Assembly (NCBI RefSeq): GCF_020193655.1
Contig: NZ_JADYVE010000007.1
Location: forward strand, 62,001 to 126,000
DNA length: 64,000 bases
Direction of reading: 5' to 3'
From: Ensifer sp. IC3342
Lineage (GTDB): Bacteria; Pseudomonadota; Alphaproteobacteria; Rhizobiales; Rhizobiaceae
Part shown: piece after piece, positions 18,054-60,762 of the stretch
How positions within the stretch are numbered: the first letter of the stretch is position 1
Layout: every line of letters starts with the position of its first letter
Position numbers and translations under genes: made by a program
The notes under the pieces: model-generated
Told to the model about the DNA's origin: nothing
The model's input: only the letters and a program-made list of their open reading frames with translations
Databases searched by the model: none

Positions 18054-18910
18054 TTGTGTCTGTCCATATCGTCAATGATGATCTGCCGAAGGGTTTCGTC
18101 GACGACCGGCCGACGGCCAAACCATCGCTCGAATCCCGGCACCGCCTGATGCAGCAGCATGCCAAGCCCATCGACAATCGCAAAGCCCTGCTCTTCGGCC
18201 TGACGCAGCAGCGGCGTCTTCAGCGGCACATAGACAATGTCCGTAACGACCGCATCCTTCGCCATCATCGAGAAATCGATCTCGGGCGACGGTTCGCCAT
18301 CCATGCCAAGCGAGGTCGTGTTGATGAAAAGCCCGGCATAGGTCATCACTTCGGACAGCGCGCCGAGCGGGTGAGCGTGAACAACGGCGCCAAAACGGTC
18401 CGCGAGTTCCTGCGCCCTGGCCGGCGTCCGGTTGACGACGTGGATTGCCTTGATGCCGCGATTGCGAACTGCCTGGATGACGGCACGGCTGGCGCCGCCG
18501 GCGCCGAGAACGACGGCGGTCGAAATCTGGTCCCATCCTTTCGCGCGCTCGTCGAGGTTGGCGACGAAGCCTTGCCCGTCGGTGTTCGTCGCGCAAATCT
18601 CTCCGCCATCGACCCACAAGGTGTTGGCAGCTCCGAGCTCGGCGCACAGTTCGTCCGGGCGATCGGAAAGTTGGAAAGCCGCTTCCTTGTGCGGAATGGT
18701 GACATTGCCGCCGCAGAAACCGGAAGCGCCGCTTCTCAATTGACGCATGAAATCCGGAAAATCTTCCGGCGAGACCTCATGGGCCTGGTAGCTGCCGGCG
18801 ATCCCCAGCTGTTTCAGCCAGTAGCCGTGGATCAGCGGCGAGCGCGAATGCTTCACCGGAAATCCGGTGACGAAGGCATGGTTAATAAATGTTTCACGTG
18901 AATCACGCAT
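18050..18910 (-). CDS. aroE: Shikimate dehydrogenase
   Basis: A 286-residue enzyme reducing 3-dehydroshikimate to shikimate with NADPH in aromatic amino acid synthesis. The substrate-binding N-terminus [17 protein letters not shown] and the catalytic lysine region [12 protein letters not shown] are clear, as are the dinucleotide-binding [11 protein letters not shown] and [11 protein letters not shown] chose the ATG at 18910, which overlaps maf by 8 bp; a longer frame upstream is inside maf. A parS-like site (18890-18905) lies within the first codons. Confidence 0.95.
18890..18905. promoter_or_regulatory. parS-like ParB-binding site 1
   Basis: TGTTTCACGTGAATCA matches the alphaproteobacterial parS consensus TGTTTCACGTGAAACA at 15 of 16 positions. 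It lies in the aroE 5' end, reaching the end of maf, and is the only site left of the predicted origin. Confidence 0.75.
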
Positions 18911-19502
18911 CAATCGAGCCCAGGTCACGGAGTTTGGAAAGCAGTGGCAGCATCGGCAAGCCGAGAATCGTAAAATAGTCGCCTTCGATCTTTTCGAAGA
19001 GCTGGATGCCCTCGCCTTCGAGCTGATAGGCGCCGACGCTGGCAAGCGCCTTCTCGCCAACCCTTGCAAGGTGTCTTTCGATGAAGCCCCGACTAAGAGG
19101 GCGCACGGTCATGTGGGCCGAGGAAACATGGCGCCAGACGACCTCGCCGTCACGGACAAGAACGACCGCGCTGTTCAGGCTGTGCGTCTTGCCGGACAGC
19201 GAGAAGAGATGATCGGCGGCCTCCGCCATATCCCTGGGCTTGTGATAGACGCGCGACCCGAGTGACATCGTCTGGTCCGAACCGATGACGAGAGCACCGT
19301 CAAAGTGCCGCGCAACATCCTTTGCCTTTGCCTCAGCCAAAGCCAGTGCGACGTCCACGGGAGAAGCGCCCGCTGCCTCGAGCGGCTGCTCCAGCGCCCG
19401 CTCATCGACTTGCGCCGCCCTCGACTGAAACACAAGCCCGGCATTTTCCAACAGGGCGCGGCGAAATGGACTGGCGGAAGCCAACACTAGGGTAGTCGTC
19501 AT
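18903..19502 (-). CDS. maf: Maf-family nucleotide pyrophosphatase
   Basis: A 199-residue Maf/Ham1-type protein. The family start [18 protein letters not shown] is seen, with E/D-rich central motifs ([28 protein letters not shown]) and the C-terminal [23 protein letters not shown] cut here to its core [13 protein letters not shown]. Maf proteins hydrolyse non-canonical or modified NTPs and are linked to division control. The start at 19502 gives the conserved N-terminus. It lies in a tight ppsR-maf-aroE-coaE series. Confidence 0.93.
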
Positions 19503-19530
19503 GGTTCTATCCCGGATCCTTCGCTTCGCT

Positions 19531-20352
19531 CTATCTGAGCCGTGGACGCAGGGCAACGATCGCGGCGGCGGTTTCCTCGATCGAGCGGCGCGTCACGTCG
19601 ATCATTGGCCAATTGTTGCGCGCACAGAGCGAGCGGGCGTACTTCAACTCCTCGGCGATCGAGGCCCGGTCGGTATAATCTTCGCCGTGGAAGGTCTGGG
19701 TTGTTCCGAGCAACCGGTGCTGGCGCACTTGCGCGATCCTGTCGGCTGTCGCGATAAGCCCGACGACCAGCGGTTTCGTCGCGCTGAGCAAACCGTCGGG
19801 CAGCGGCACGCCGGGCACGATAGGGATGTTTGCCGTCTTGATGCCGCGATTGGCAAGATAGATGCTCGTCGGCGTCTTCGATGTGCGACTTACGCCGACA
19901 AGAACGACGTCGGCCTCGTCGAAATCCGCCGGCATCTGGCCGTCGTCATGGTCCATGGTGAAGTTCAGCGCCTCGATCCGGGCGAAATATTCCGCATCCA
20001 TGACATGTTGCGCTCCCGACCGGCGGCGGGACGGCGAGCCGAGATAGGATTGAAACAGGTCGATGATCGGATCGAGTACCGAGACGCAAGGGACACCGAT
20101 CTCGCGGCAACGCTGATTGATGACGTCGGCAAGCTCGCGGTCGACGATCGTGTAAAGAACGATGCCCGGCGCACCGTCGATCGCTTCAAGCACCTGCATG
20201 AGCTGCTTCCGGTTCCGGATCAGCGGGTAGACATGCTCCAACGCATGCGACGACTGGAACTGCGCCGCCGCGGCACGTCCCGCGGCAATCAGCGTCTCGC
20301 CCGTCGAATCGGAGACGAGGTGCAGGTGGAAATAGTTTTTTCGGTTCTCCAC
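19531..20352 (-). CDS. Pyruvate, phosphate dikinase regulatory protein (PPSR family)
   Basis: A 273-residue DUF299 protein. Members are bifunctional serine/threonine kinase-phosphorylases that inactivate and reactivate PPDK or PEP synthetase. Features are [15 protein letters not shown] at the N-terminus and the P-loop region [20 protein letters not shown]. The start is a GTG at 20352. This gene borders the predicted origin, and its orientation leads away from it. It is the first gene of the ppsR-maf-aroE-coaE unit. Confidence 0.93.
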
Positions 20353-20436
20353 GCAATTCTCCGGGGGCTGTTGATAGGCCGGGACAGAAACAGGTAACGG
20401 CGCGGCGGCTCTTCAGGCAAGTGGAAAAGCGCCGAC

Positions 20437-20445
20437 TTATTCACA
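20437..20445 (+). promoter_or_regulatory. DnaA box, exact consensus
   Basis: TTATTCACA is a full match to the TTATNCACA DnaA-box consensus, inside the predicted origin. Confidence 0.8.
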
Positions 20446-20479
20446 TCCCTGACCCGAGCGGAGAACGTCGAACGGGCCA

Positions 20480-20488
20480 TGTGGAAAA
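20480..20488 (-). promoter_or_regulatory. DnaA box, one mismatch
   Basis: The reverse strand reads TTTTCCACA, one base from TTATCCACA. Confidence 0.6.
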
Positions 20489-20527
20489 GACTCATGGCGA
20501 TGACAAAGTGTCACGCGTTTCGACAGC

Positions 20528-20536
20528 TTGTACACA
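20528..20536 (+). promoter_or_regulatory. DnaA box, one mismatch
   Basis: TTGTACACA differs from TTATNCACA at position 3. Confidence 0.6.
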
Positions 20537-20758
20537 GGAAGCGCAAAATTCTCGGAGAGTATAAGCTTCAGATTCTTAAGCGTTTTCTTCTTTCTCCTTG
20601 GTCCAGGCTGGCAGATCGGCATTCTTCTCCCCGTTTCATGCGGAGACGGCACGGCCTTTGGATGAATTGCGGATTGATTTTAATCCTTGATAGCCACCGA
20701 CTCTAAGAAATAGAAACCTTTTAAAATCAGTTTGATTATATTTTGGGAGAAGCTGCGG

Positions 20759-21790: not shown

Positions 21791-22329
21791 TGGGCGAGCG
21801 CCAGACCGATAGCGGGCCGGGAAACAGGGCGCGCCTGCGCGCATGGATCGCCCTGTCGGCCTTTTTTTTGCTGCTGGTCGGCCTCTTCGTCTGGCAGCCG
21901 GACGACCTCTACCTCTGGATCAAGGCGCTGCACGTTATTGCCGTGATATCCTGGATGGCGGCACTTCTCTATATGCCGCGTCTCTTCATCTATCACACCG
22001 ATGCGGCGCCGGGGTCGGCGCAGTCGGAAACGTTCAAGATGATGGAGCAGCGCCTGCTGAAGGTCATCATGAACCCGGCGATGATGATCTCGTGGGCGCT
22101 CGGCCTCTACCTGGCATGGAGCGTCTACCGCTTTCAGGGCGGCTGGCTGCACGCCAAGCTCTTTTTCGTCGTGCTGTTGACCGTTGTGCATGTGCATTTC
22201 AGTCGTGCGGTGAGAGCCTTCGAGCGTGACGAGAATCGCCGTGACGCACGCTACTGGCGGCTGATGAACGAGGCCCCGACGCTGCTGATGATTCTCATCG
22301 TCATCATGGTCGTGGTGAAACCATTTTGA
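21787..22329 (+). CDS. hemJ: Protoporphyrinogen IX oxidase HemJ-type membrane protein
   Basis: A 180-residue integral membrane protein of the UPF0093/HemJ family. It oxidises protoporphyrinogen IX in bacteria lacking HemG and HemY. About four to five hydrophobic helices are visible, with the conserved [26 protein letters not shown] and a C-terminal [15 protein letters not shown]. Its start overlaps the hemE stop, so the two haem-synthesis genes are translationally coupled. Confidence 0.92.
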
Positions 22330-22385
22330 ATTCAATCGATTTTTTGCTGCAATAGTTGTCGCTAATTTGCCGCAGCCCCTTGCGG

Positions 22386-22401
22386 CGTTTCACGTGAATC
22401 G
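22386..22401. promoter_or_regulatory. parS-like ParB-binding site 2
   Basis: CGTTTCACGTGAATCG in the gap between hemJ and rho keeps the central TTTCACGTGAA and differs from the consensus at the edges. Confidence 0.6.
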
Positions 22402-22526
22402 CTATTTTCCATCATCTCCTTCATCTCTTGGCTTGTGACAAAGTTTAGAGCCTGCCTCTTCCCTTCCGCAGCTCCCTTACAAAAATCACGCCAACTTCCA
22501 TTCCCATACCCACACATGGATTCTTC

Positions 22527-23792
<1,266 letters not shown>

Positions 23793-23813
23793 CGCAGTTC
23801 GGGGTTCTGTGTA

Positions 23814-23846
23814 AATGGCCGGGACGCATCACGTCCCGGCCATTTT
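23814..23846 (+). terminator. Rho-independent terminator after rho
   Basis: A 13-bp stem AATGGCCGGGACG / CGTCCCGGCCATT with a 5-nt loop, followed by TT, 21 bp after the rho stop. Confidence 0.85.
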
Positions 23847-23921
23847 CCGTGTTGCGGCATCTATTTCCTTAGCCGGATTCGTCGAAGGCGCGATCAGAGG
23901 ACCAGTATTTCAGTTCCACGA

Positions 23922-23937
23922 TGATTCACGTGAAACA
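23922..23937. promoter_or_regulatory. parS-like ParB-binding site 3
   Basis: TGATTCACGTGAAACA has 15 of 16 matches to the parS consensus. It lies in the 470-bp gap between rho and mnmE, which also holds the rho terminator and a mosaic repeat. Confidence 0.75.
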
Positions 23938-24087
23938 CGGAGTGCCACTTGTGTGGGCGGTTGTGCCAGTCGGAGAGGCTTGATTTCCGACGCCCGGAGG
24001 TGCATAAGTCGCGGCGCTCTGCATCCTGTGCAGAAATGGTGAGGGTTGCTCGGGCGAGAATGATGGCCGTCCCTGATGCGACTGGCC

Positions 24088-24192
24088 CTACAGCGCCGCG
24101 CGTCCCTGGACGCGCAAAGGTCGCTGTAGCACCTTGAATTGCTGCATGATTTTGGGCTTAAATCGATTTCGATTTAAGGAATCATGCGGTAG
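24088..24192. repeat. Rhizobial mosaic palindromic repeat, copy 1
   Basis: A ~105-bp element: CTACAGCG...CGCGCAAAGGTCGCTGTAG, then TTGAATTGCTGCATGA and a palindrome TTAAATCG-ATTTCGATTTAA, ending ATCATGCGGTAG. Related copies lie at 34469, 47758, 58947 and, degenerate, 37913. It is intergenic, upstream of mnmE. Confidence 0.8.
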
Positions 24193-24262
24193 CCCCTCAA
24201 CGACAGAAGATGAAACCGAGCTTGCGGACAACGACTTAGGCTCGGGGACGCGCGGTGGCCCA

Positions 24263-25588: not shown

Positions 25589-25622
25589 ACGAACCGATAC
25601 AACGACAGCGAGTCACCCGCAG

Positions 25623-25638
25623 CGTTTCACGTGAAACC
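25623..25638. promoter_or_regulatory. parS-like ParB-binding site 4
   Basis: CGTTTCACGTGAAACC contains the complete 14-bp core palindrome GTTTCACGTGAAAC and lies between mnmE and mnmG. It is among the best matches in the window. Confidence 0.85.
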
Positions 25639-25693
25639 TCTTGACTCGCGTGATGAAATTCAGAATCAGGGCTGGACTAGCTGGAGCATTGGA

Positions 25694-27577: not shown

Positions 27578-28215
27578 AAACGAGTCTGGCCGGAAGCTTG
27601 AACGGATTGCGTGTTTCACGTGAAACGGTCGAGAAGCTAGAGCACTTTGGTGCCTTGTTTCAGAAATGGGCGAAGTCGATAAACCTCGTGGCGCCGTCGA
27701 CCCTCGAGGATTTATGGCGGCGTCATATTCTCGACAGCCTGCAGATCTTCCAACTGGCGCCGACGCCGAAGATCTGGGTCGATCTTGGCAGCGGCGGCGG
27801 GTTTCCCGGAGTGATTACGGCGATTTGCCTGTCAGAGCTTGGGGACGGCTGGGTTCACCTGGTTGAAAGCAACAACAAGAAATGCGCGTTTCTGCGCGTG
27901 GCGCTGAACGAAACCGGCGCCCGGGGCTCTGTGCACCCAATTCGAATCGAAAGCGCGAGTGCAGTCATCCCCCGTTGCGACGCTATTTCGGCGCGTGCAC
28001 TCGCCGATCTGAGCCAATTGCTGGATTATTGCACCCCTTGGATGATCGGCGAAGGTGCCAATGCGGTCGCCTACTTTCATAAAGGGCGGGATTACCAGCA
28101 GGAAATAAACAAAGCCGTTAGCCGGTTTCAATTCGATCTGGTAAAACATGCGAGTGTCGTCGAGCGAGATTCGGTTGTGCTCGAGATTGCAAATCTTTCA
28201 CGTCGGACGAAGTGA
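27574..28215 (+). CDS. rsmG: 16S rRNA (guanine527-N7)-methyltransferase RsmG
   Basis: A 213-residue SAM-dependent methyltransferase that modifies G527 of 16S rRNA. It shows [20 protein letters not shown], the SAM motif [13 protein letters not shown] and [15 protein letters not shown]. Its ATG overlaps the mnmG stop. A parS-like site is embedded in codons 13-18, where it encodes VSRET. It ends overlapping or adjacent to parA, so mnmG-rsmG-parA-parB read as one unit. Confidence 0.95.
27612..27627. promoter_or_regulatory. parS-like ParB-binding site 5, inside rsmG
   Basis: TGTTTCACGTGAAACG is a 15 of 16 match containing the full core palindrome. It lies in coding sequence of rsmG, 0.6 kb before parA. 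Confidence 0.85.
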
Positions 28216-28229
28216 TAGGCGAGCGAAAC

Positions 28230-29024
28230 ATGTTTGGCCCCAGAAATCGGATTATCACAATTGCTAACCAGAAAGGCGGGGTCGGAAAGACGACAACCGC
28301 AATCAATCTTGCGACCGCTTTGGCCGCAATTGGCGAGAAAGTTCTGATTGTTGACCTCGATCCGCAAGGAAATGCCAGCACGGGCCTCGGAATTCAGCGC
28401 CGCGATCGGCATCTTTCTTCCTATGAATTGATGATGGGAAGCCATTCGATCGGCGATATCGCCCAAAGCACGGCGGTACCGAATCTCTCGATCGTGCCTT
28501 CGACCATGGATCTGCTCGGCATCGAGATGGAAATCGCTCGGGAGTCCGACCGTGTGTTTCGCCTTCGCAAGGCGCTCGCAGCCCATGAGGCCCTCGCCTA
28601 TTCCTATGTCCTGGTCGACTGCCCGCCATCCTTCAATCTCTTGACGATGAACGCTATGGCCGCCGCGCATTCCGTGCTGGTGCCATTGCAGTGCGAGTTC
28701 TTTGCGTTGGAAGGTTTGAGCCAGTTGCTGGAGACCGTCGATCAGGTGCGTCGGACGGTCAATCCGAGCCTGGACATCCAGGGAATCGTCCTGACGATGT
28801 TTGATTCCCGTAACAATCTCGCTCAGCAGGTCGTGAGTGACGTCCGCACCCATCTGGGCGACAAGGTCTATCACACTTTGATTCCGCGAAACGTCCGGGT
28901 TTCGGAGGCACCCTCCTACGGCAAGCCGGCCATTCTCTACGATTTAAAGTGCGCCGGAAGCCAAGCATATCTGCAATTGGCGTCCGAAGTGATCCAGCGC
29001 GAGCGGCAACGCAAGGCTGCGTAA
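28230..29024 (+). CDS. parA: Chromosome partitioning ATPase ParA
   Basis: A 264-residue deviant Walker-A ATPase (NQKGGVGKTTTAINLATAL) with LIVDLDPQGNAST, VLVDCPPSFNLLTMNA and SEAPSYGKPAI. It forms the DNA-bound gradient that moves ParB-parS complexes. I prefer the ATG at 28230. A GTG at 28212, overlapping the rsmG stop, is a possible alternative that adds six residues. It is followed 33 bp later by parB. Confidence 0.97.
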   Translation: MFGPRNRIITIANQKGGVGKTTTAINLATALAAIGEKVLIVDLDPQGNASTGLGIQRRDRHLSSYELMMGSHSIGDIAQSTAVPNLSIVPSTMDLLGIEMEIARESDRVFRLRKALAAHEALAYSYVLVDCPPSFNLLTMNAMAAAHSVLVPLQCEFFALEGLSQLLETVDQVRRTVNPSLDIQGIVLTMFDSRNNLAQQVVSDVRTHLGDKVYHTLIPRNVRVSEAPSYGKPAILYDLKCAGSQAYLQLASEVIQRERQRKAA

Positions 29025-29057: not shown

Positions 29058-29948
29058 ATGAACGACGACAGCTCCAAAAGGCGTCTCGGCCGCGGTCTCG
29101 CGGCGTTGATCGGCGAAATGGATCAGCCGTTGCAAGGCGGTGCCACGTCGCAGACGCCCTTCAATCCCGATCGCCGCGTGCCGATCGAGTTTGTGTCGCG
29201 CAATCCCCGCAACCCCCGTCGCCAGTTTGACGAAGCGGAACTGCAGGATCTTGCGAGCTCGATCCGCCAGCACGGCATCGTGCAACCGGTCGTCGTGCGC
29301 ACCGTTGGTAATGACCGCTACGAGATCATTGCCGGCGAGCGCCGCTGGCGCGCGGCTCAACTTGCGGGCTTTACGGAGATCCCGGTGATCGTGCGAGACG
29401 TGGACGATCGTACCGCGCTGGAGATCGCGATCGTCGAGAACGTCCAGCGATCCGATCTCAACCCGCTCGAAGAGGCGCTGGGCTACGAACAGCTGATCGC
29501 CGAACACGGCTACACGCAAAATGACCTGGGCGACATCATCGGCAAGAGCCGAAGCCATGTGGCCAACAGCCTGCGACTGCTGAAGCTGCCGGAGCCCGTG
29601 CGCGACATGCTGTCGGATGGCAGCCTCTCGGCCGGCCACGCGCGAGCGCTGATCCCGACCTCGGATCCGGTGGCGTTGGCGCGCAACATCGTCGCGAAGG
29701 GGCTTTCGGTGCGCGAGGCGGAGCGCCTGGCGCAGAACGATATCCGCGCACAGAACGACCCCAACTTCGCCAAGGCGCCGCGCCGGGAGGAGAAGGATGC
29801 CGATACGCTGGCGCTCGAGCGCACGCTGTCGGATAGCCTCGGGCTCGAAGTCACCGTCAGCCACAAGGCCTCTGGCGGGTATCTGCGGATCGCCTACAAG
29901 ACACTTGACCAGCTCGAAGAGATTTGCCGGCTGCTGGAGCGCCGCTGA
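29058..29948 (+). CDS. parB: Chromosome partitioning protein ParB
   Basis: A 296-residue CTP-dependent DNA clamp that loads at parS. The N-terminal ParA-interacting segment RRLGRGLAALIGE is followed by the CTP-binding fold (NPRNPRRQFDE, GERRWRAAQLAG, ENVQRSDLNPLEEA). A helix-turn-helix follows (YTQNDLGDIIGKSRSHVANS), then a linker and C-terminal dimerisation region. It is the last gene of the mnmG-rsmG-parA-parB unit. The scattered TTTCACGTGAA sites are its likely targets. Confidence 0.97.
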   Translation: MNDDSSKRRLGRGLAALIGEMDQPLQGGATSQTPFNPDRRVPIEFVSRNPRNPRRQFDEAELQDLASSIRQHGIVQPVVVRTVGNDRYEIIAGERRWRAAQLAGFTEIPVIVRDVDDRTALEIAIVENVQRSDLNPLEEALGYEQLIAEHGYTQNDLGDIIGKSRSHVANSLRLLKLPEPVRDMLSDGSLSAGHARALIPTSDPVALARNIVAKGLSVREAERLAQNDIRAQNDPNFAKAPRREEKDADTLALERTLSDSLGLEVTVSHKASGGYLRIAYKTLDQLEEICRLLERR

Positions 29949-29964
29949 GCGTAGCGCTGCTATA

Positions 29965-30009
29965 CCCGCGCCGTCGTCCTTGGGTTAAGCTCGAGGATGA
30001 CGGCGCGGG
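29965..30009. repeat. Long inverted repeat between parB and holA
   Basis: A 16-bp arm CCCGCGCCGTCGTCCT pairs (one G-T) with AGGATGACGGCGCGGG across a 13-nt loop. It lies in the 165-bp gap between convergent parB and holA. There is no T tract. It may be a degenerate GTCATCC-type alphaproteobacterial palindromic repeat serving as a transcription barrier for both genes. Confidence 0.7.
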
Positions 30010-30113
30010 GAGTCCGTGCAAGATCCTTGCGTTGCATCCAGTTCGGCCGGCAACTGCGTTGCACTTCTTCTGCTTCAGAGGCCAGCCTGAGCGAGCCCAA
30101 TCGTACTTTGCCG

Positions 30114-31148
30114 TCAGCGCTTAGCCGACTGCACGGTGATCGCCAGGAGGTTCTGCAGAACGAGACTGTCTTCCAGGCTCGGCCGCGTGCGACTTTGATA
30201 GATCGTCGCCTGTAGCCGGCTCATTTCCCGCCGGATTGCTGGTCCGGTCCAGTGCCGAAGTGCTGCTTCGACAATCGGTTTGCGCCGGAAGTGCAGGTTC
30301 CTTCCAAGGCTGGCGATCACCTGGCTAGGAGATTGGCGGCTGGCATCCATTTCGGAGCGCATGGCGTCCAATTGCTGGAACTGTCGCAGGCACGCCTGGA
30401 GCACGAGAAACGGCGGCGTCTTCGACGTCGTAATCTTCCTCATGGCGTGGAGTAGCGCGTCCACATCGCCTTTCAGCACGGCATCGACCGCGTCGTCGAC
30501 AGAAATCGCACTGGCATCGCCGACGATATCGAGCACATCGTCCTCGTCCACTATCTCTTTCCCGCGGCAGTAAAGCGCCAGTTTTCTCACCTCATTGCGC
30601 GAAGCAAGACGATCGCCGCCGAGCGCCTCGAGCAGGCGCTCGCGTGCGGCAGGGGTGAGCCGAAGCCCCGCTTCGGCGAGTTCCTGGTCGATAAGCGCGT
30701 GCAGGCTGCGGGCGTCGTCGCTGTAGCAGGCGATTGACGCGATGGAACGGGCTGATTCGCCGGCCTTTCGAAGAGCTGCCCCCTTCTTGAGGTCGCCGGC
30801 CTCTATGAGGAGGTAGCTGCCGGTGGGCGGTTCAGCGGCAAGGATCTGCAATGCTTCGGAAAGCGCCTTCTCGGCGGAGGCACCGCGGATCCAGACGAGT
30901 TTTTCACCGCCAAAAAGGCCAATGGCATTGATCTCGTCGAGCAATCGTCCGGGATCCTGCTGCACGTCGCTAGCGTCGAGTTTGACGACGGCAAACGGGT
31001 CATCGAGCGGGATGCCGAATTTTGAAGCGAGCAGCGCGGCGCGTTCCGAAACGAGACCGCGATCGGGGCCGTAGAGCAAGAAAAGCCGGTAGCTTCCAGA
31101 CGCCTTCTGCAGGAAGCCGTCGAACTCGTGCGACTTGATCTCGCTCAT
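30114..31148 (-). CDS. holA: DNA polymerase III delta subunit
   Basis: A 344-residue clamp-loader subunit that opens the sliding clamp. HolA features include FLLYGPDRGLVSERA near the N-terminus, the mid-region LIEAGDLKKGAALRK, and LGGDRLASRNEVRKLALY with C-terminal RQFQQLDAMR. It lies 12 bp after lptE in a leuS-lptE-holA unit, the same order seen in many alphaproteobacteria. Confidence 0.93.
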   Translation of the reverse strand: MSEIKSHEFDGFLQKASGSYRLFLLYGPDRGLVSERAALLASKFGIPLDDPFAVVKLDASDVQQDPGRLLDEINAIGLFGGEKLVWIRGASAEKALSEALQILAAEPPTGSYLLIEAGDLKKGAALRKAGESARSIASIACYSDDARSLHALIDQELAEAGLRLTPAARERLLEALGGDRLASRNEVRKLALYCRGKEIVDEDDVLDIVGDASAISVDDAVDAVLKGDVDALLHAMRKITTSKTPPFLVLQACLRQFQQLDAMRSEMDASRQSPSQVIASLGRNLHFRRKPIVEAALRHWTGPAIRREMSRLQATIYQSRTRPSLEDSLVLQNLLAITVQSAKR

Positions 31149-31160
31149 CCGAACCCCGGA

Positions 31161-31706
31161 TCAGCGGCCGAGGGCCGATGCGATGTCGGCGCCGATGATC
31201 TCCGCCAGTTCCTTCGCCGCGCGGTTCTCGCCGTCGCGAATGGCGCGGACCTTGGCGAATTCCTGTTGAGGGAAGTCGACCAGCGCAACGGCCGTTCGGT
31301 TGCCCGCTCTGACGGTTTCGCCGGTGGCGGTTTTGGTCAGGTTGTAGTCCGCCTTCACGACAATGCGGCCGGCTCCTGCGTCGTCATCGTCACGGTCATT
31401 GTCCGTCGTGTCAAACAGCACACCCATGGTCCGGTGCGAGACATTGAGTGCGAGATGATATTGTGGGTTGACCGGCTCGCCAGCGCCGCGTGAAGCGAGG
31501 AAGATGAGGGCGTTGCGCACTTCCTGCTCGACGCGGTCGTCAGCCTCCGAGATCTCGATCGAAGCGAGCGCCACCGACGTCGAGCCGGTGGGGCCGTCGG
31601 AGTAAAGCGGCCGCACCTGGCAACCCGCCAAAGCGGTCAACAGCAGGCCGCCCGCCAGTATCGGAAATGACCGGAGGCGAAGGGCGGCTTTATCAGACAA
31701 CGACAT
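31161..31706 (-). CDS. lptE: LPS-assembly lipoprotein LptE
   Basis: A 181-residue outer-membrane lipoprotein plugging the LptD translocon. The signal peptide ends in a lipobox LTALAGC, followed by [12 protein letters not shown]. The rest is a LptE/RlpB-type domain with [16 protein letters not shown] and [13 protein letters not shown] chose the ATG at 31706, inside the last codons of leuS (14-bp overlap), which exposes the signal peptide; a longer frame lies within leuS. Confidence 0.9.
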
Positions 31707-34323
31707 TGACGATCCTCTGCGGCACGACGATGATCTTTTTCGGGTTGCTGCCGTTGAGCGCCGCTTTGACGGCGTCGAGAGCAAGCACGGCGCTTTCGAT
31801 CGCACTCTGATCAGCGTCACGCGCGATTGTCAAATCGGCGCGCTTCTTGCCGTTGATCTGGACCGGCAGGGTGATTTCGTTCTCGACGACCAGGACCGGG
31901 TCAAAGCTCGGCCAAGCGCGCTCGGCGATCAAACCGTCGCCGCCGATCTCCCGCCAGCATTCTTCCGCCAGGTGCGGCATCATCGGCGCGATCAGATTGA
32001 CCAGGATCGCAACGGCGTCCTTTACGGCCGCGGTGACTGCCGGACCGGCCTTGCCGCCGGCCACCTGGGTCAGCGGAGCGGCCACAACGTTGACGAGTTC
32101 GTAGATCCGCGCCACTGCCTTGTTGAAGGCGAGCTTGTCGTAGTCGGCTTCCACCGCGCGCAGCGTCCTATGCGCGGCCTGGGAGATGGCGAGGCCGTCG
32201 CCTTCTTTCGCCGGCGAAGCTTCGATTGCTCGCAGGTTTTCAGCGGCCTCGGCGATGAGCCTCCAGACGCGCTGAACGAAACGATGAGCGCCCTCGACGC
32301 CTGCTTCGGACCAGATCACGTCGCGGTCCGGCGGCGAATCGGAGAGAACGAAGAAGCGGGCCGTGTCGGCACCGTAGGAGCTGATGATGTCATCCGGATC
32401 GACGACGTTCTTCTTCGACTTCGACATCTTCTCGATCGAGCCGATGGCGATTACCTCACCGGTCTCGATCAGAAGCGCGCGCCGCTCACCGTCGACTTCC
32501 TCGACGCGGACCTCGGCCGGCGTGATCCATTCGCGCTGGGCGCCCTCACCGCGGCTGTAGGTCTCGTGCACCACCATGCCCTGGGTGAACAGGCCCTTGA
32601 ACGGTTCGTCGAGCGCCACGTGGCCGGTCGCCTTCATCGCGCGGGTGAAGAAGCGAGAATAGAGCAGGTGCAGGATCGCGTGCTCGATGCCGCCGATATA
32701 TTGGTCGACGGGAAGCCAATGGTTGGCGACTTTCGCGTCGGTCGGATTGTCCTCCCACGGCGCGGTAAAGCGTGCGAAGTACCAAGAGGAATCGACGAAC
32801 GTGTCCATGGTGTCGGTTTCGCGCCGGGCGTCCTTGCCGCACTCAGGGCAGGCGACATGCCGCCAGGTCGGATGACGATCGAGCGGATTGCCTGGCTTGT
32901 CGAAGGTCACGTCCGGCGGCAGCGTCACCGGCAGATCCGCCTTCGGCACCGGCACCACGCCGCAGTCGTCGCAGTGGATCACCGGGATAGGGCAGCCCCA
33001 ATAGCGCTGCCGCGAGATGCCCCAGTCGCGCAGGCGGAAATTAACCTTGCGCTCCGCTTGCGGCGTACCGCCCAACGCTTCCTTTTCGAGCCTCGAGGCG
33101 ACCATCTCGAAGGCGTCTTCCGTCGAAAGGCCGTCGAGGAAGCGCGAATTGATCATCACCCCGTCGCCGACATAGGCTTCGTTCTCGATCTTGAAACTTG
33201 CGGCGTCGGCTTCCTTCGGCATCACCACGGGGATGACCGGCAGGTCGTATTTGCGGGCGAAGTCCAGGTCGCGCTGGTCACCGGAAGGGCAGCCGAAGAT
33301 GGCTCCCGTGCCGTAGTCCATCAGCACGAAATTGGCGATATAAACCGGCAGTTCCCAACTCGGATCGAGCGGGTGCTTTGCGCGAATGCGGGTATCGATG
33401 CCTTTCTTTTCGGCCGTTTCGAGCGCAGCGAGCGAGGTGCCGGCGCGCCGGCATTCCTCGCAGAATGCCTCGATCTGGGCATTGCTGGCGGCGGCCTCCT
33501 TGGCGAGCGGATGGTCCGCCGAAATTGCCAGGAATGAGGCGCCGAACAGCGTATCCGGGCGTGTCGTATAGACGGTCAGTTCCGTCGTGCCATCCGGAAC
33601 GGTCGCAGCATCGAGCTCCCACCGCACCAGCAGGCCCTCGGAGCGGCCGATCCAGTTCTTCTGCATCAGCCGGACCTTTTCCGGCCACTGATCGAGCCCG
33701 TCGAGCGCGTCGAGCAGGTCCTGGCTGAAATCGGTGATGCGGAAGAACCATTGAGTCAGTTCGCGCTGCTCTACCAGAGCGCCGGAACGCCAGCCGCGAC
33801 CGTCGATCACCTGCTCGTTAGCGAGCACGGTGTTGTCGACCGGATCCCAGTTGACCTTCGACTGCTTGCGGTAGACGAGACCCTTCTCGAGGAAATCGAG
33901 GAAGAGATGCTGCTGGCGCTGGTAATAGGCCGGATCGCAGGTGGCGAATTCGCGGTTCCAGTCGAGCGACAGGCCCATCACCTTCAGCTGCGCCTTCATC
34001 GAGGCGATGTTCTGATAAGTCCAACTCGCCGGATGCACGCCGCGTTCCATCGCGGCGTTTTCCGCCGGCATGCCGAAGGCATCCCAGCCCATCGGATGCA
34101 GCACGTTGAAGCCGCGGGCGCGCTTGTAGCGGGCAACGACGTCACCCATGGTGTAGTTGCGCACGTGCCCCATGTGGATACGGCCCGAGGGATAGGGGAA
34201 CATCTCGAGCACATAATATTTTTCGCGCGGATCGTCGTTGCTGGTCTCGAAGACCTTGCCTGCTTCCCATTCCTGCTGCCAGCGCGGTTCGGCATCACGC
34301 GGATTATATCGTTCGGTCGCCAT
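31693..34323 (-). CDS. leuS: Leucyl-tRNA synthetase
   Basis: An 876-residue class I aminoacyl-tRNA synthetase. The HIGH-type motif [20 protein letters not shown] is at ~residues 42-61. The editing domain has [16 protein letters not shown], the zinc-like [11 protein letters not shown] and CPECGK motifs are present, and the KMSKS loop is [15 protein letters not shown]. The ATG at 34323 ([16 protein letters not shown]) is the conserved start; an in-frame extension to 34395 is unlikely. First gene of leuS-lptE-holA. Confidence 0.98.
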
Positions 34324-34468
34324 TGTCGTTTCGATGTTCCGGAAATTCTGGGGGCGCTCAGGCACCCTCATGATAGCTGGCGTGACCTTCATCACGAAAC
34401 CGCTTGAGCGTCAAGTTTTGAAGGGGTTGGCAGTGCACTTTGGCATGTTTAGGCGGGCGATCTGCCCG

Positions 34469-34573
34469 CTACAGCGCCCTGCGTCTTATCACGCGCGCAA
34501 AGGATGCTATAGCACTTTGGGTTGCCGCATGTTTTGTCCTCAATCGGGTAGGTTTTAGGGAAACATGCAGCAG
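34469..34573. repeat. Rhizobial mosaic palindromic repeat, copy 2
   Basis: A ~105-bp copy from CTACAGCGCC through AAAGGATGCTATAGCACTTTGG to AACATGCAGCAG. It fills much of the 325-bp gap between divergent leuS and yggS, where no other feature is seen. It is more diverged than copies 1 and 4 and lacks the ATTTCGATTTAA arm. Confidence 0.75.
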
Positions 34574-34648
34574 GCCTTGGCAAGGACCGCGAGTTTCAAT
34601 AAGCGGCAGAGGAGGTTAATCGTGGTCTTCGGACGTGGGAGCGCAAGG

Positions 34649-35308
34649 ATGGAAGTTCAGGAGCGGTTGAACGATGTCGTGAGCCGGATTCGCGCCAGCG
34701 AAAAGGCGGCAAAACGGCCCCAGGATGCCGTCACTCTGGTTGCCGTGTCGAAAACCTTCGATGCCGACGCGATACGTCCGGCGATTGCCGCCGGCCAGCG
34801 CGTCTTCGGTGAGAATCGCGTCCAGGAGGCAGAGCGCAAATGGCCAGCGCTCCGCCTTGAGACGCCCGATGTCGAACTGCATTTGATCGGCCCCTTGCAG
34901 TCGAACAAGGCGGTCGACGCAGTCGCGCTCTTCGATGTCATCGAGACCATCGATCGCGAGAAGATTGCCCGGGCGGTCTCCGCCGAGATGAAGCGGCAGG
35001 GCCGCAATCTTCGCCTCTATGTCCAGGTCAACACCGGCCTAGAGCCGCAGAAGGCCGGCGTCGCCCCGGAAGACACCGCCGCCTTCGTCGAGCTTTGCCG
35101 CAGCGAACTGGCGATGAAGATCGAAGGCCTCATGTGCATTCCTCCGGTTGACGAGAACCCTGGTCCGCATTTCGCGCTGCTTGCGAAGCTTGCCGCGGAA
35201 TGCGGTCTCGACAAGCTCTCGATGGGCATGTCCGGTGATTTCGAGACGGCGATCGCCTTCGGCGCCACCAGCGTTCGCGTTGGCTCGGCGATTTTTGGGG
35301 CGCGCTGA
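34649..35308 (+). CDS. YggS/PROSC-family pyridoxal phosphate-binding protein
   Basis: A 219-residue alanine-racemase-fold protein that binds PLP at Lys35 (VAVSKT) and is involved in PLP homeostasis. Family motifs are VFGENRVQEAERKW, LHLIGPLQSNKA, LYVQVNTGLEPQKAG, GLMCIPP and LSMGMSGDFETAI. I chose the ATG at 34649; the in-frame ATG at 34565 lies in repeat DNA. A stand-alone gene. Confidence 0.92.
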   Translation: MEVQERLNDVVSRIRASEKAAKRPQDAVTLVAVSKTFDADAIRPAIAAGQRVFGENRVQEAERKWPALRLETPDVELHLIGPLQSNKAVDAVALFDVIETIDREKIARAVSAEMKRQGRNLRLYVQVNTGLEPQKAGVAPEDTAAFVELCRSELAMKIEGLMCIPPVDENPGPHFALLAKLAAECGLDKLSMGMSGDFETAIAFGATSVRVGSAIFGAR

Positions 35309-35533
35309 GGCTTTCCTAGTCGCGGCTTATCGCGCGAGGGCGGGTTTGCGACGCCAATGTCTGTCACGGCCGCCCGTCATTGGTGTACCGTTGGGCCGTG
35401 CGCGAAATCGATGGTTGAGTGGCACGAAGGTGCGATTCCCTCGTCCAATCGACACACTTTTGCATCCGGCAGTGCCCGCGAGTATCTTGCGAGGACGTGA
35501 AAAATCTGGCCCAGAATGAGAGGGAGCTCGGGA

Positions 35534-36415
35534 TCATTTCGGTCGCTGCGCTCCGATGTCCTTTACGGACTCAAGGCCCGAATTGCCAAACATTACCGGT
35601 TGCTCATCGTACAAGGCAAAATCGCCCCAGTGCCCGCCGCCAATTTGGTTATTGACGATGCTGATCGAAATATCATCGACAGCGCCGCCGCCCTTCCGTC
35701 CGTCGAGATAGACGGTGTAGCCGCCTCCCAAAAGGCGATTGCAGCTGATGGTGATATCCGACAGACCTGCAAAGTGATTGGCCATCATGACGGCCGAGGT
35801 TTGGCCGTGGTCGTTGATCACTGTATTGCCAATGATATCGATATTTCGCCCACCATTGATCTCGATACCGTCGAAATGTGGATCGGTCTTTGCGGCATGT
35901 AGATCGTGAATGAAATTGCCTCGGACCGTGGATGGTCCCCATATTGTCATGCCGTTCTCAGCGTGGTGTATATTGCTGCGGAGGATGGTTCCGAAACCAT
36001 AGATGGCATTGACGGTCGCACCGCGGGCGTCAATCTCACTGTCCATGAGAGTGAAGCCCTTGGCCTCATCCATGATTCTTAGTGCATGCCATGGAGTGTC
36101 TGAAATGAGCCTGGTGTTCTTGACGGTGACGTTCTTGGCCTCGACGACGATATCGCCCAGAACCTCCAGACTGCTGATGACGGTGTTGTCCTTCGTCACA
36201 TGAAGCGTTCCCTTGTACTGGGTCAGCTTCGTCCCGACGGGCACCCCGGTGTTCGAGGCGTCGGGAAACAGATCGCACGGGTTCACTTGTGATGCGCAAA
36301 GCGTCGCTCGTTCGAATTGGCAAGTTTCGGCAGCGCTGGCATCGAGTGCGTCCCACGCCGAGTTTAAGGCCGCGAAAGGAATCGCAAGAAAAGGCGCCAA
36401 TTTATTGCGTCTCAT
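35534..36415 (-). CDS. Secreted right-handed beta-helix protein, function unknown
   Basis: A 293-residue protein starting MRRNKLAPFLAIPFAALN, with a likely signal peptide ending near ASAAETC. A cysteine-bearing segment (CQFERATLCASQVNPCDLF) is followed by a parallel beta-helix built from short repeats (NTVISSLEVLGDIVVEAKNV, DGIEINGGRNIDIIGNTVIN, DITISCNRLLGGGYTVYLDG). Similar folds occur in pectate lyases, mannuronan epimerases and surface proteins, but I see no diagnostic catalytic set. An ATG at 36454 would add 13 residues. Base composition is less GC-rich than the neighbours. It is followed upstream by a glycosyltransferase gene, 8 bp from its upstream start region, suggesting a small accessory module. 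Confidence 0.75.
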   Translation of the reverse strand: MRRNKLAPFLAIPFAALNSAWDALDASAAETCQFERATLCASQVNPCDLFPDASNTGVPVGTKLTQYKGTLHVTKDNTVISSLEVLGDIVVEAKNVTVKNTRLISDTPWHALRIMDEAKGFTLMDSEIDARGATVNAIYGFGTILRSNIHHAENGMTIWGPSTVRGNFIHDLHAAKTDPHFDGIEINGGRNIDIIGNTVINDHGQTSAVMMANHFAGLSDITISCNRLLGGGYTVYLDGRKGGGAVDDISISIVNNQIGGGHWGDFALYDEQPVMFGNSGLESVKDIGAQRPK

Positions 36416-36469
36416 CTCATCGCTCCGCAATGCTTTGTGAATACTGTCAAGCAAACCGCCGATTGCTGA

Positions 36470-37423
36470 TCACCTAGCGTCGGTCCGCCAGCGCATCATA
36501 TGCGACGTAAGATGACGCTGCCGCTTATTGAGGAGCTTGGTGGCCATCCTGAAGAGCGATGCTACTGTGGACCCAAGATGGTTGGGATGGTCCGTGAGAC
36601 CGGCGATCAGGAATTTCAACGACCGCCGCTTCTTGCCCATCTTGTAAAGCGCGATTGCCAGGTCAATCATCAGCCTCGATCTATGTTTCCTTCTTGCCGA
36701 AAGCACACCCTTGTTTTTCCTGAGGATACGCAGCAGCCCCATCGTCTGTTTATGCCTGCTGCATGAAATGCTGTCGCTCGATATATATCCCAGTACGACC
36801 GGCTCGATATCTTCATAGAGTGTCGTGTGCTGCGCGAGCCGTATCGCGAATTCCCAATCCTCGTTAGCCCGCGCGCACGGATCGAACCAGGAGTTCCCGG
36901 GAAAGCAATCCCGCCGAAAGAGTGTGTTCTGCAAACTGATGCGGTTCTCTGATAGCAGACGACCGAGCTGATCTTCCTCCAGCCTCAATCGGCCCTCGGG
37001 CGGCGGCGCAAAGGCCACTTTGGCAGGACCGAAATTGAAAGAAGCGTCGCGGCCATAGAGGATTTTGGCGCCCGTAACCACGCCAACATGGGCCGGGAGG
37101 GTCGAAAAGAGGGAAATCTGGCGCATCAGCTTGCCAGGCAACCAGATGTCGTCGCTGTCCTGGAAGGCAATGTAGTTGCCTCTGGCTTCGGCAAGACCCG
37201 TATTGCGAGCCGCAGCTGCGCCGCCGTTCTTCACGCGCCGTACGTATTTCACCCGCGGGTCACAAAAGCTGCGGACCACGCCCTCGACGTCCTCAGTCGA
37301 GCCGTCATCTACGACAATAAGTTCAAGGTTTTCATATGATTGGCTGAGAACGCTCGCCATCGCCGCGGCCAGGCTACGCGTTCGATTGAACGTCGGGAGT
37401 ATGACGGAGACATCAGCGTTCAT
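36470..37423 (-). CDS. Family 2 glycosyltransferase
   Basis: A 317-residue GT-A glycosyltransferase. It starts NADVSVILPTFNRTRSLAAA, has the nucleotide-sugar site LELIVVDDGSTEDVE, NGGAAAARNTGL, the DxD-like IAFQDSDDIWLPGKL and the acceptor-side ANEDWEFAIRLAQ. A basic C-terminal ~100 residues follows (KMGKKRRSLKF, KLLNKRQRH). It probably adds a sugar to a surface polysaccharide; donor and acceptor are unknown. The ATG at 37423 is chosen over 37450. It lies just upstream of the beta-helix gene on the same strand. Confidence 0.87.
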   Translation of the reverse strand: MNADVSVILPTFNRTRSLAAAMASVLSQSYENLELIVVDDGSTEDVEGVVRSFCDPRVKYVRRVKNGGAAAARNTGLAEARGNYIAFQDSDDIWLPGKLMRQISLFSTLPAHVGVVTGAKILYGRDASFNFGPAKVAFAPPPEGRLRLEEDQLGRLLSENRISLQNTLFRRDCFPGNSWFDPCARANEDWEFAIRLAQHTTLYEDIEPVVLGYISSDSISCSRHKQTMGLLRILRKNKGVLSARRKHRSRLMIDLAIALYKMGKKRRSLKFLIAGLTDHPNHLGSTVASLFRMATKLLNKRQRHLTSHMMRWRTDAR

Positions 37424-44665: not shown

Positions 44666-44839
44666 CGGACCGCAACGGGTGGCTTGAGCAGCAACGATCC
44701 CGAACTGATGGGTCGCGTCATTTAGCCGGAGTCGAGTAAATGGCCTGACTCGCGCTCGGGCGCTTACAGCACCACGATCTCGGCATAGCGCCCACCGAAT
44801 CGCCAACGAAACGAGTTTACTCTATCGAGGCGTAACGTT

Positions 44840-45040
44840 TCAGAAATCGATCGCCCGACCCTTGATCTCCCAATCGCCGAAGCGCGCCGGGTCGAGGCCG
44901 CCGCGTCCGCCCACTTCCGTCGGCATGTCCTGCGGCTTTGCGGCGCGCCGTCTCTCCTCAGCCTCCTTCAGCGCGCGCAGAGCGGCTGCCGGCAGCGGGC
45001 GTTTGGGCCGGTCGGGTGCATTGTCATTGTCGTTCTGCAT
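44840..45040 (-). CDS. DUF1674 / SDHAF4-like small protein
   Basis: A 66-residue protein beginning MQNDNDNAPDRPKRPLPAAA. The C-terminal DUF1674 signature PTEVGGRGGLDPARFGDWEI ends close to the terminus (KGRAIDF). Eukaryotic SDHAF4 with this motif helps assemble succinate dehydrogenase flavoprotein; bacterial members are uncharacterised. I chose the ATG at 45040. A parS-like site lies upstream, toward htpX. Confidence 0.85.
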   Translation of the reverse strand: MQNDNDNAPDRPKRPLPAAALRALKEAEERRRAAKPQDMPTEVGGRGGLDPARFGDWEIKGRAIDF

Positions 45041-51397: not shown

Positions 51398-51398
51398 T

Positions 51399-52787: not shown

Positions 52788-52810
52788 TTTCCCCTCCCGG
52801 AATTAATCGA

Positions 52811-58856: not shown

Positions 58857-58946
58857 CGGCGGATATAAAAGAAATGGCTTATAAGCGCTCCTCGCCCTTT
58901 TTGAAGCGCTAAGGTCGCTGTAACACTTCGACGCTTCAGTGGGTCT

Positions 58947-59051
58947 CTACAGGGCCGCGCGTCTTACTCAGACGCGCAAAGGTCGCTGTAGCACTTTGGA
59001 TTGCTGCATTTTGTCCTTAAATCGATTCCGATTTAAGGAATCATGCAGTAG
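58947..59051. repeat. Rhizobial mosaic palindromic repeat, copy 4
   Basis: A ~105-bp copy: CTACAGGGCCGCGCG...GCGCAAAGGTCGCTGTAG, then TTGGATTGCTGCATTTTG, the TTAAATCG-ATTTAA palindrome and ATCATGCAGTAG. It is 5' of the carbonic anhydrase gene. A partial GGTCGCTGTAACACTTCG fragment just upstream (58913-58930) suggests a second, eroded unit. Confidence 0.8.
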
Positions 59052-59092
59052 GACGATGCAGCAATGAATGAGTGAATGACGCGGGGTTATCG

Positions 59093-59740: not shown

Positions 59741-59776
59741 CGAAAGGGTGCGGTTGGTTCGCACTGATGCAACGTG

Positions 59777-59803
59777 CCCCTCTTCCGGCAGGCGGACGAG
59801 GGG
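59777..59803. repeat. Partial RIME1-type fragment, copy 5
   Basis: CCCCTCTTCCGGCAGGCGG then ACGAGGGG, the terminal half-palindrome of a RIME element between the convergent carbonic anhydrase and MltB-like genes. It could act as a weak terminator. Confidence 0.6.
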
Positions 59804-59833
59804 CAAATTGAATCGTCGTGGCCTGCGGTCTTC

Positions 59834-60655
59834 TCAGTAGCCGTCGATCTCGGCGCCGATGATGGCGATTGCCTGCTGATAGACGCTGGCTGCGTTCCAT
59901 CCCTGGATCGCAGCGTAATTGACTTCGCCGGGCTGATAGCCGCCGCCCGGCTGCCAACCATGGCCGCGCAGGAAGTTGGCCGTGGAGGCGAGTGCATCCG
60001 CCTTGGAGCGGACCATGTCGATATGGCCGTCGCCATCGCCGTCCACGCCAAATCTCAACACGTTGACCGGCAGGAACTGGGTCTGTCCGATTTCGCCATG
60101 GGCAGCACCCCGGGCGGCCGGACTCAGATCGCCGCGCTCGACGAGTTGGAGCGCGGCGTAGAGCTGGTTGGTGAAATAATCCGAACGCCGACAGTCATAG
60201 GCGAGCGTCGAGACGGCCGAGAGCGTATGTTCCTTGCCCATGAACGAGCCGAAGCCAGTCTCCATGCCCCAGATCGCGATCAGCGGCCCCGCCGGCACGC
60301 CGAAGCGCTGCTCGATGCTGTCGAAGAGCCTGGCGTTCTGTGCCCGCATCTTCTTGCCACGCGAGATAATCGTCTGTCCGCCGCGCTTCTGCATGAACTG
60401 GTCGAGCGAGAGCTTGAAGCTCTTCTGGCCGCGGTCGGCGCGGATCGTCGCCCTGTTATAGGCAACGCCGGAGAGCGCCTGGTCGATGACCGCGGGGCTG
60501 ATGCCGTTGCCGGCGGCTTGCTGTTTGAACTCGGCTACCCAGGCTTGAAAGCCGCTGGCGTCATTGCCGCATTGAGCCGCCGCCGCTGTCGCGGGAAGGA
60601 TCGCCGCTGAAAACAGGGCCGCAAGCCCCGCCACTACGCACTTTGCGCTGTGCAT
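59834..60655 (-). CDS. Lytic murein transglycosylase, MltB-like
   Basis: A 273-residue periplasmic protein. A signal peptide (HSAKCVVAGLAALFSAAILP, cleavage near AAAAQC) precedes a SLT_2/MltB domain with the catalytic glutamate in WGMETGFGSFMG, CRRSDYFTNQLYAALQLVER and HGEIGQTQFLP. DGDGDGHIDMV resembles a calcium-binding loop seen in the family. It cleaves peptidoglycan glycan strands. I chose the ATG at 60655. It is the second transglycosylase in the window after mltA. Confidence 0.93.
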   Translation of the reverse strand: MHSAKCVVAGLAALFSAAILPATAAAAQCGNDASGFQAWVAEFKQQAAGNGISPAVIDQALSGVAYNRATIRADRGQKSFKLSLDQFMQKRGGQTIISRGKKMRAQNARLFDSIEQRFGVPAGPLIAIWGMETGFGSFMGKEHTLSAVSTLAYDCRRSDYFTNQLYAALQLVERGDLSPAARGAAHGEIGQTQFLPVNVLRFGVDGDGDGHIDMVRSKADALASTANFLRGHGWQPGGGYQPGEVNYAAIQGWNAASVYQQAIAIIGAEIDGY

Positions 60656-60746
60656 GAAATACCCCGTCGTTGCCCGAACAATCACTTGTCTTCAAAAAAC
60701 GCCGGCTTCTGCCGGCCTATTACTGGTCCCGCGTTACGGGATGTCA

Positions 60747-60762
60747 TGTTTCACGTGAATCC
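60747..60762. promoter_or_regulatory. parS-like ParB-binding site 8
   Basis: TGTTTCACGTGAATCC is a 14 of 16 match, in the gap upstream of the MltB-like gene. It is the most distant site, about 31 kb from parB. Confidence 0.6.

Follow-up and report, generated by a model that had tools for sequence, protein, structure and literature searches.

Chromosomal parS sites in described systems

In ParABS systems dimers of ParB load at parS sites, close as clamps that depend on cytidine triphosphate (CTP) and slide outward, serving ParA and SMC. The DNA considered here is a stretch of 64,000 nucleotides from Ensifer sp. IC3342 (the window; C93:62001-126000, C93 being contig NZ_JADYVE010000007.1 of a draft genome of 7,420,954 bases in 115 contigs), in which palindromic parS-like sites are scattered around parA and parB. 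The canonical arm of such a site is GTTTCAC and an arm altered at position 3 (T3A) is GATTCAC; a site with one arm of each kind is called T3A-hemi below. With two further members left of the window, C93:28454 (P0) and C93:17527, which lie 33.5 and 44.5 kb outside it, the array comes to ten sites over ~105 kb when single mismatches are allowed. Among the bacteria with which it can be compared, Agrobacterium tumefaciens belongs to the same bacterial family as this host and Thermus thermophilus to an unrelated lineage; the comparisons draw on the accessible parts of the papers cited.

Caulobacter crescentus has several parS sites close to its origin at which ParB nucleates, with affinities that have been measured and are graded, and there are likenesses to the present array in that one half of the site (GTGAAA) is conserved among its sites and in that sites lie within genes (PMC5815017). 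It differs in having 5-7 sites, the five strongest of them within 5 kb, as against ten over ~105 kb here, and conservation of site class across species is not among the features described in the accessible text (PMC5815017). The comparison with a tight cluster has to allow for two perfect sites that lie 2 kb apart in the present array, the classes here being assigned by sequence and not by strength. Bacillus subtilis likewise has eight dispersed parS sites of unequal ParB occupancy, but these are spread over ~0.75 Mb and a fixed change in one arm is not described in the portion available; clustered strong sites seem to limit SMC collisions in this organism and widely separated strong sites cause blockage (PMC8357415).

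The parSc1 site of Burkholderia cenocepacia has the same canonical 16-mer. When ParBc1 was studied by surface plasmon resonance (SPR) imaging, probes with a one-arm T3A or T3C change behaved much as wild type and symmetric changes at positions 3 and 14 abolished binding, a tolerance that matches the common T3A-hemi sites and the near absence of double T3A sites here, although the Burkholderia probes were laboratory variants (PMC5450999). Natural parS repeats are described as varying at positions 1 or 5, positions 7 or 10 being permissive to a smaller degree in some species, and position 3 is not named in the accessible text (PMC5450999). The wild-type chromosomal parS probe used for electrophoretic mobility shift assays in T. 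thermophilus begins TGTTTCCCGTGAAACA, the same 14-base core as a site within a prpE-like gene of the window (P6), which makes P6 plausible as a ParB site (PMC4409726). ParB of Pseudomonas aeruginosa recognises single arms (heptanucleotides), but as many half sites scattered over the genome and not as full-length hemi sites around the origin (PMC10419367). ParB1 of A. tumefaciens is enriched at parS1 near the origin, with a canonical consensus; site classes are not given in the part of that paper available (PMC9239152).

In the literature that could be found, with subscription journals thinly covered and papers seen in part, nothing described a class that stays fixed at a given site from one species to another, an exchange of the altered arm or a parS in a rho promoter. 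Among the exact variant strings the P6 core alone turned up, in the Thermus paper (PMC4409726) and in a review, and a search on synonymous or intragenic parS returned unrelated work only. The array is an ordinary chromosomal ParABS centromere; what is new is the pattern in which imperfection is retained at its sites.

The array and its extent

All eight 16-mers that a sequence-only reading had placed in the window were found, at 18890, 22386, 23922, 25623, 27612, 39765, 45120 and 60747 (P1 to P8; Table 1), as multiple copies of TGTTTCACGTGAAACA-like palindromes each 1-3 mismatches from that 16-mer. A 12-mer search of the window with up to 2 mismatches gave 10 matches against 1.75 expected (standard deviation 1.31; 0 of 100 shuffles reached 10), two of which, at 46673 and 56025, were rejected as sites because they are without the outer bases. 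The window has 15 CACGTG hexamers, 7 of them within sites, and the other 8 lack the flanks, as had been claimed. Genome-wide the exact 12-mer WTTCACGTGAAW is present at 8 places, every one of them on C93, with 7 inside the window and the eighth at C93:28455, and its reversed pattern at none in the whole assembly; the motif is not equally frequent elsewhere. The 14-mer GWTTCACGTGAAWC with up to one mismatch occurs at 13 places, and the 11 of these on C93 are the eight in the window together with C93:28454, C93:17527 and C93:55070. The last of these (GTTTCACATGAAAC) lies within a longer perfect inverted repeat, as judged by eye, and was set aside as a doubtful parS. At up to two mismatches there are 33 places against 14 for the reversed pattern, so that the two-mismatch places are mostly background.

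It is strongly supported by the sequence comparisons that these are, as had been proposed, the parS sites of the ParABS system of the primary chromosome, on which the ParA and ParB encoded among them act, since the sites keep to the origin region (one contig has all 8 exact places and 11 of the 13 at up to one mismatch), ParA and ParB have canonical domains and there are 7-10 sites of the form GNTTCACGTGAANC per genome in 33 of 33 genomes of the genus. Measured from 20.54 kb, within the likely origin, the ten sites lie at about -65 (17527), -54 (28454), -1.7, +1.8, +3.4, +5.1, +7.1, +19.2, +24.6 and +40.2 kb, three to the left and seven to the right, and the strong 7:1 lopsidedness described from the window was partly an effect of the window's edge. 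The sites had also been called mostly intergenic, which holds for five of the eight; the remaining three are inside genes, at 18890 (aroE), 27612 (rsmG) and 39765 (prpE-like). The genic sites (18890-18905, 27612-27627 and 39765-39780) encode SRET, as DSRET in AroE and VSRET in RsmG and the PrpE-like protein, and this peptide could help to locate genic parS sites in protein data.

Two perfect sites and an imperfect periphery

P4 and P5 carry GTTTCAC on both arms. P1, P2, P3, P7, P8 and P0 combine one GTTTCAC with one GATTCAC arm in either orientation, P6 has GTTTCCC on one arm and C93:17527 has both arms altered, one being a C arm and one an A arm, so that among the eight sites other than P4 and P5 seven have one arm altered and one has both. 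The two sub-classes earlier distinguished, by an -ATC right half and a TGATTC left half, are reverse complements of one another and form a single class in two orientations. We lean towards reading the array as a strong core with an attenuated periphery, in which the outlying sites would be held below full strength by selection. The perfect pair P4/P5 would be the main loading platform, and the outlying sites, kept sub-maximal by selection, might broaden the domain covered by ParB and yet not turn into rival centres at which ParB, ParA or SMC would be loaded. This reading draws on the persistence of the classes in relatives in which the adjoining neutral sequence saturates.

Within the genus the sites were listed in full for eight genomes (G001-G008), where order, spacing, orientation and class match those of this genome with few exceptions: the 22386 homologue is absent in G002 and that of 17527 in G007, 28454 is altered in G004 and 17527 is variable. 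A wider comparison used named ParB loci, taking the best 80 of 365 relatives (Sinorhizobium, Rhizobium and neighbours), with ~10 kb on each side; the class counts cover sites of the GNTTCACGTGAANC form, further one- and two-mismatch forms, mainly P6, existing besides. There are 155 sites with two canonical arms (GTTTCACGTGAAAC), 75 at P4, 80 at P5 and none elsewhere within ~10 kb, and the remaining 141 sites comprise 140 T3A-hemi and one A/C. T3A on both arms (A/A) was found in none, against 16.8 expected under independent arms. Across 121 family genomes a double T3A occurs in one, against about 29-31 expected among 540 sites, where the arm frequency comes from a hand tally of 73 or 75 sites among the matches listed for 17 family genomes. 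The tally of 73 leaves out G077:C11 and G110:C163, which have both arms altered and lie on their own contigs (the lone-contig G110:C349 was kept), and including them lowers the expectation from 31 to ~29. The one-arm-altered sites in this tally divide 34:4:1 between A, C and G. In 11 genomes of 10 genera, hand-picked mostly by high PrpE matches and with the perfect pair recognised by its spacing, the 21 perfect sites form ten ~2-kb pairs and one single, with none elsewhere, and the 49 altered sites comprise 43 T3A, 3 T/C, 2 A/C and 1 T/G.

Near absence of double changes is also what would be anticipated if a one-arm T3A site were bound nearly as well as a perfect one, the hemi form being inherited by descent and double changes abolishing binding. 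The behaviour of ParBc1 towards one-arm and symmetric changes (PMC5450999) fits such neutral tolerance, which we regard as possible though the less probable account. It has against it that no perfect site was found outside P4 and P5 in the 80 loci, and that P3, P7 and P8 retain A on the same arm amid flanks that are saturated or nearly so. P3 reads GATTCACGTGAAAC in 30 of 30 sequences (29 named loci and the window), between flanks whose ungapped conservation is 0.41-0.42, a figure lowered by indels; in one locus (L026) three of the four aligned sites are without a place, the contig being short. Across these loci invariance is seen at 14 of 579 four-fold sites, and T accompanies A in 325 of the 387 four-fold columns in which A occurs. 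The rho-mnmE spacer in which P3 lies (23793-24256 here) measures 340-1115 bp in Sinorhizobium, as against 70-312 bp in the remaining loci read, and P3 is found solely in the long form.

P7, P8 and P0 were aligned in eight genomes and this one, and the 17527 homologue in seven and this one, of the genus's 33. P7 and P8 are identical in 9 of 9, with flank conservation of 0.51-0.73, and P0 is unchanged in 8 of 9, the exception retaining the A arm with the other arm changed. The 17527 homologue is GCTT..AATC in four, GATT..AAGC in three and GTTT..AAGC in one of the eight; its C and A arms swap, and it is never perfect.

Some further observations concern relatives and the perfect site P4. Many Rhizobium loci (for example L070-L076, L079, L080, L084 and L086-L091) have a T3A-hemi site ~40 bp from a perfect P4, the pair being located near -3.45 kb from parB, and in L075, L079, L084, L086 and L087 a P6-type CCCGTG site follows closely behind parB, at ~0.9-1.05 kb from the start of that gene. 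A family genome of 4.8 Mb (G111) has 19 GNTTCACGTGAANC sites, the highest of 121 genomes. P4 in the window is flanked closely on both sides by GANTC, at 25610-25614 (GAGTC) and 25643-25647 (GACTC), a few bases off.

The prpE site

Neutral tolerance is further opposed by the behaviour of P6, which, as with the 17527 homologues, switches base and side yet stays imperfect. Among 58 prpE orthologues (matches at 38-40%, being paralogues, were excluded) the site is GTTTCCCGTGAAAC (TCC-CGT) in 36, GTTTCACGGGAAAC (TCA-CGG) in 6 and GTTTCACGTGAATC (T3A) in 7, the nine orthologues without an intact site, two of them with a partly decayed TCC-CGT, being left out of the count of forms. All 49 intact sites are imperfect, although the perfect form is one substitution away from each variant. 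TCC-CGT and TCA-CGG have exchanged at least four times on each of two quick trees, one of parB plus mnmG and the other of prpE with the site masked out, and each exchange consists of two linked substitutions three bases apart that shift the altered arm to the other side; the sister pair L036 and L039 differs in form. In family genomes 30 prpE loci were compared: the site is intact in 5, counting this genome, decayed in 1 and missing from 24, and it is perfect in none. Loci lacking the site show no conservation of the peptide, and the codons at P6 have a probability from codon usage of 2.1e-3 (TCC-CGT) and 7.1e-4, from which it follows that the constraint acts on the DNA.

A number of points weigh against selection for imperfection. 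The perfect prpE form needs two rare codons and would have a probability of 2.7e-4, as against 2.1e-3 and 7.1e-4 for the forms found, a rarity that also speaks for neutral tolerance; ~3.7 perfect sites would be expected by codon usage among 42 VSRET sites, and their absence is moderately surprising (~0.02 if the sites were independent, which they are not). Our confidence has been lowered because codon usage makes the perfect prpE form rare. An A-containing neutral column is without T in 62 of 387 cases, and therefore one A that does not toggle at a single site is only suggestive, weak evidence, and the 80 ParB loci are those of close relatives. Three of the 17 family genomes listed, each of a different genus, have more than two perfect sites (G123 has 5, G103 has 4 and G071 has 3), so the rule of two perfect sites is not universal. 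The A arm of P2 is explained, on comparison of rho upstream regions, by an overlapping GANTC.

The main doubt is that the one-arm T3A change was close to wild type in the Burkholderia assay, which measured binding and not CTP-dependent loading (PMC5450999); by analogy with ParBc1 the T3A class may hardly be weaker. The graded ParB affinity that the sequence-only reading had suggested has indirect support from the conservation of class at each site, and stands against the near wild-type SPR result for one-arm T3A probes (PMC5450999).

GANTC and methylation

The T3A arm creates GANTC, the target of CcrM, by construction, and does so at the six T3A-hemi sites here and at C93:17527; a RAMA-domain (CcrM-type) protein is encoded at C27:530903. 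It could be imagined that peripheral parS sites are kept imperfect by selection and that the altered arm mostly installs a CcrM site, so that methylation would switch ParB loading outside the core, most outlying sites loading according to whether they are fully or hemi-methylated and thereby following replication. Were this true, sequence would fix centromere strength at each site and methylation would set it for each stage of the cell cycle. The presence of GANTC in every T3A arm, the RAMA-domain protein, the preponderance of A in the hand tally of one-arm-altered sites and the retention of GANTC at P2 in 38 of 46 loci without parS are in its favour, yet we consider it improbable, both as a selective account and as a coupling of loading to methylation.

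A RAMA domain was found in 31 of 32 sampled alphaproteobacteria and in 6 of 88 other genomes, one of these over the cut-off. A T3A-hemi match is present in 12 of the 18 genomes from the order (29 sites), in 1 of 14 other alphaproteobacteria (one site) and in 9 of 88 others (11 sites), the reversed pattern giving no match. In all, 12 of 13 RAMA-positive alphaproteobacteria of other orders are without a T3A-hemi match, and the sole match (G258) is far from the perfect sites of its genome. Conversely nine genomes outside the alphaproteobacteria have T3A matches without a RAMA hit over the cut-off, other GANTC methylases not having been sought; the same 9 of 88 sampled non-alphaproteobacterial Pseudomonadota speak for neutral tolerance, their sites being counted at any distance from the origin. 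P6, moreover, is held imperfect without GANTC in 42 of 49 cases. Matches with a C or a G arm were found in 3, 2 and 4 genomes (order, other alphaproteobacteria, others), one each, below the reversed control and thus at background level, and GTTYCACGTGRAAC is present in 114 of 120 sampled genomes. The T3A class is common in the order but does not track CcrM, and CcrM was rejected as its general cause; a general link is not supported by these genome comparisons, and the coupling is conceivable for this order only.

The rho site and transcription

Upstream of rho the P2 16-mer occupies the 17-base spacer of the element TTGCGG-N17-TATTTT. In 79 rho upstream regions, with parS counted at up to 2 mismatches, this element is present in 31 of 33 with parS and in 42 of 46 without, and the GANTC beside its second hexamer in 33 of 33 and 38 of 46 respectively, the N being A in 20, G in 17 and C in 1 of the latter 38. 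Imperfect P2 sites, three in loci of the genus and one in Neorhizobium, keep the GAATC arm and have the other arm changed. GANTC is therefore conserved independently of parS, P2 arose on top of a GANTC that was already there, and the overlap accounts for its A arm; as the element is kept without parS, parS is the addition. A standard sigma-70 scan upstream of rho gave no match at threshold, the TTGCGG-N17-TATTTT element being unscored, and it is from conservation that we infer a possible rho promoter. Only at P2 does a conserved GANTC adjoin a promoter-like core, an arrangement expected of a CcrM-regulated promoter. The rho site is a parS built into a promoter-like spacer atop an independently conserved GANTC.

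The position of P2 within a conserved element, and of C93:28454 and the excluded 55070 in inverted repeats (by eye), might suggest that some of the palindromes serve transcription and not segregation, as part of a promoter or as hairpins. This would seem very unlikely, given that P3 and P8 have no conserved surroundings in the alignments, that P5 and P6 are inside genes and that 42 of the 46 loci devoid of parS still have the rho element. P0 is situated within the 3' arm of an inverted repeat rich in GC, the opposite arm of which contains a partial copy of a parS half (by eye), and upstream of P7 (45070-45135) there is a conserved CATCATATAA and a small inverted repeat.

Asymmetric arms could also give direction to the loading of ParB or SMC, and orientation is indeed fixed for P0, P7 and P8 in the nine aligned genomes and for P3 in 30. 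We give this hardly any credence and have rejected it, as orientations are mixed on one chromosome arm and the P6 and 17527 homologues have changed theirs.

Gene neighbourhood and the likely origin

The genes run in the order DnaQ-like exonuclease gene, a gene that we presume from its translation to be coaE-like, aroE, maf, a PF03618 gene, a low-GC spacer and hemE, followed by rho, mnmE, mnmG, rsmG, parA and parB, the last two being adjacent and ~8 kb from the low-GC spacer beside hemE that is the predicted origin. It is likely that this spacer (~20.35-20.73 kb) is the replication origin: the window's lowest-GC 300 bp starts at 20471 and DnaA-box-like 9-mers with one mismatch lie at 20437 and 20480, although the sole exact such 9-mer of the window is at 3800 and three other one-mismatch ones are also outside the spacer.

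GERR is a motif of the CTP pocket of ParB, and it is present in the encoded protein, whose iiagerrwraaq aligns with ivagerrwraaq of the closest solved structure (6t1f, chromosome-partitioning protein ParB, 1.7e-67); two Ensifer strains have a ParB with 99% identity to this one, which points to Sinorhizobium/Ensifer as the group of the genome. The best NCBIfam model for the prpE-like gene is propionate--CoA ligase, at 740.7 bits, under the cut-off of 955. From parB to the prpE site (29058-39780) is 10.7 kb here and 8.1 kb in L013, that is ~2.6 kb extra. No Pfam family was matched in 21843-22226 or 44727-44900.

Table 1. Sites, genes and elements of the window, in window coordinates
Feature	Coordinates	Strand	Description
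P1	18890..18905	+	TGTTTCACGTGAATCA, T3A-hemi parS within the 5' end of aroE; read as DSRET on the - strand
likely replication origin	20350..20731	.	between the PF03618 gene and hemE; low GC, gene names
rho promoter-like element	22380..22408	+	TTGCGG-N17-TATTTT, with GAATC (GANTC) in the spacer; conserved also without parS
P2	22386..22401	+	CGTTTCACGTGAATCG, T3A-hemi parS; occupies the spacer (17 bp) of the conserved rho upstream element
P3	23922..23937	+	TGATTCACGTGAAACA, T3A-hemi parS in the rho-mnmE spacer
P4	25623..25638	+	CGTTTCACGTGAAACC, both arms canonical, between mnmE and mnmG
P5	27612..27627	+	TGTTTCACGTGAAACG, both arms canonical, within rsmG (VSRET)
parA	28212..29024	+	Pfam AAA_31 8.2e-61; no NCBIfam model at its cut-off
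parB	29058..29948	+	ParB_N, HTH_ParB and ParB_C domains (PF02195, PF17762, PF23552)
P6	39765..39780	+	TGTTTCCCGTGAAACG, one arm changed at position 7, within the prpE-like gene (NVSRET)
P7	45120..45135	+	TGATTCACGTGAAACG, T3A-hemi parS upstream of htpX
P8	60747..60762	+	TGTTTCACGTGAATCC, T3A-hemi parS in the spacer 3' of asd

Implications for the centromere

Why bacteria bear several parS sites of unequal quality is an open question, to which the relatives of this Ensifer give a testable answer site by site, in which two positions are perfect and the rest are not, one of the latter swapping its altered arm instead of becoming perfect. The natural variants provide a ready set of point changes with which the question of unequal parS sites can be approached. 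If the reading of a strong core with an attenuated periphery is upheld, centromere strength would be both distributed and capped, perhaps limiting competing ParB or SMC loading.

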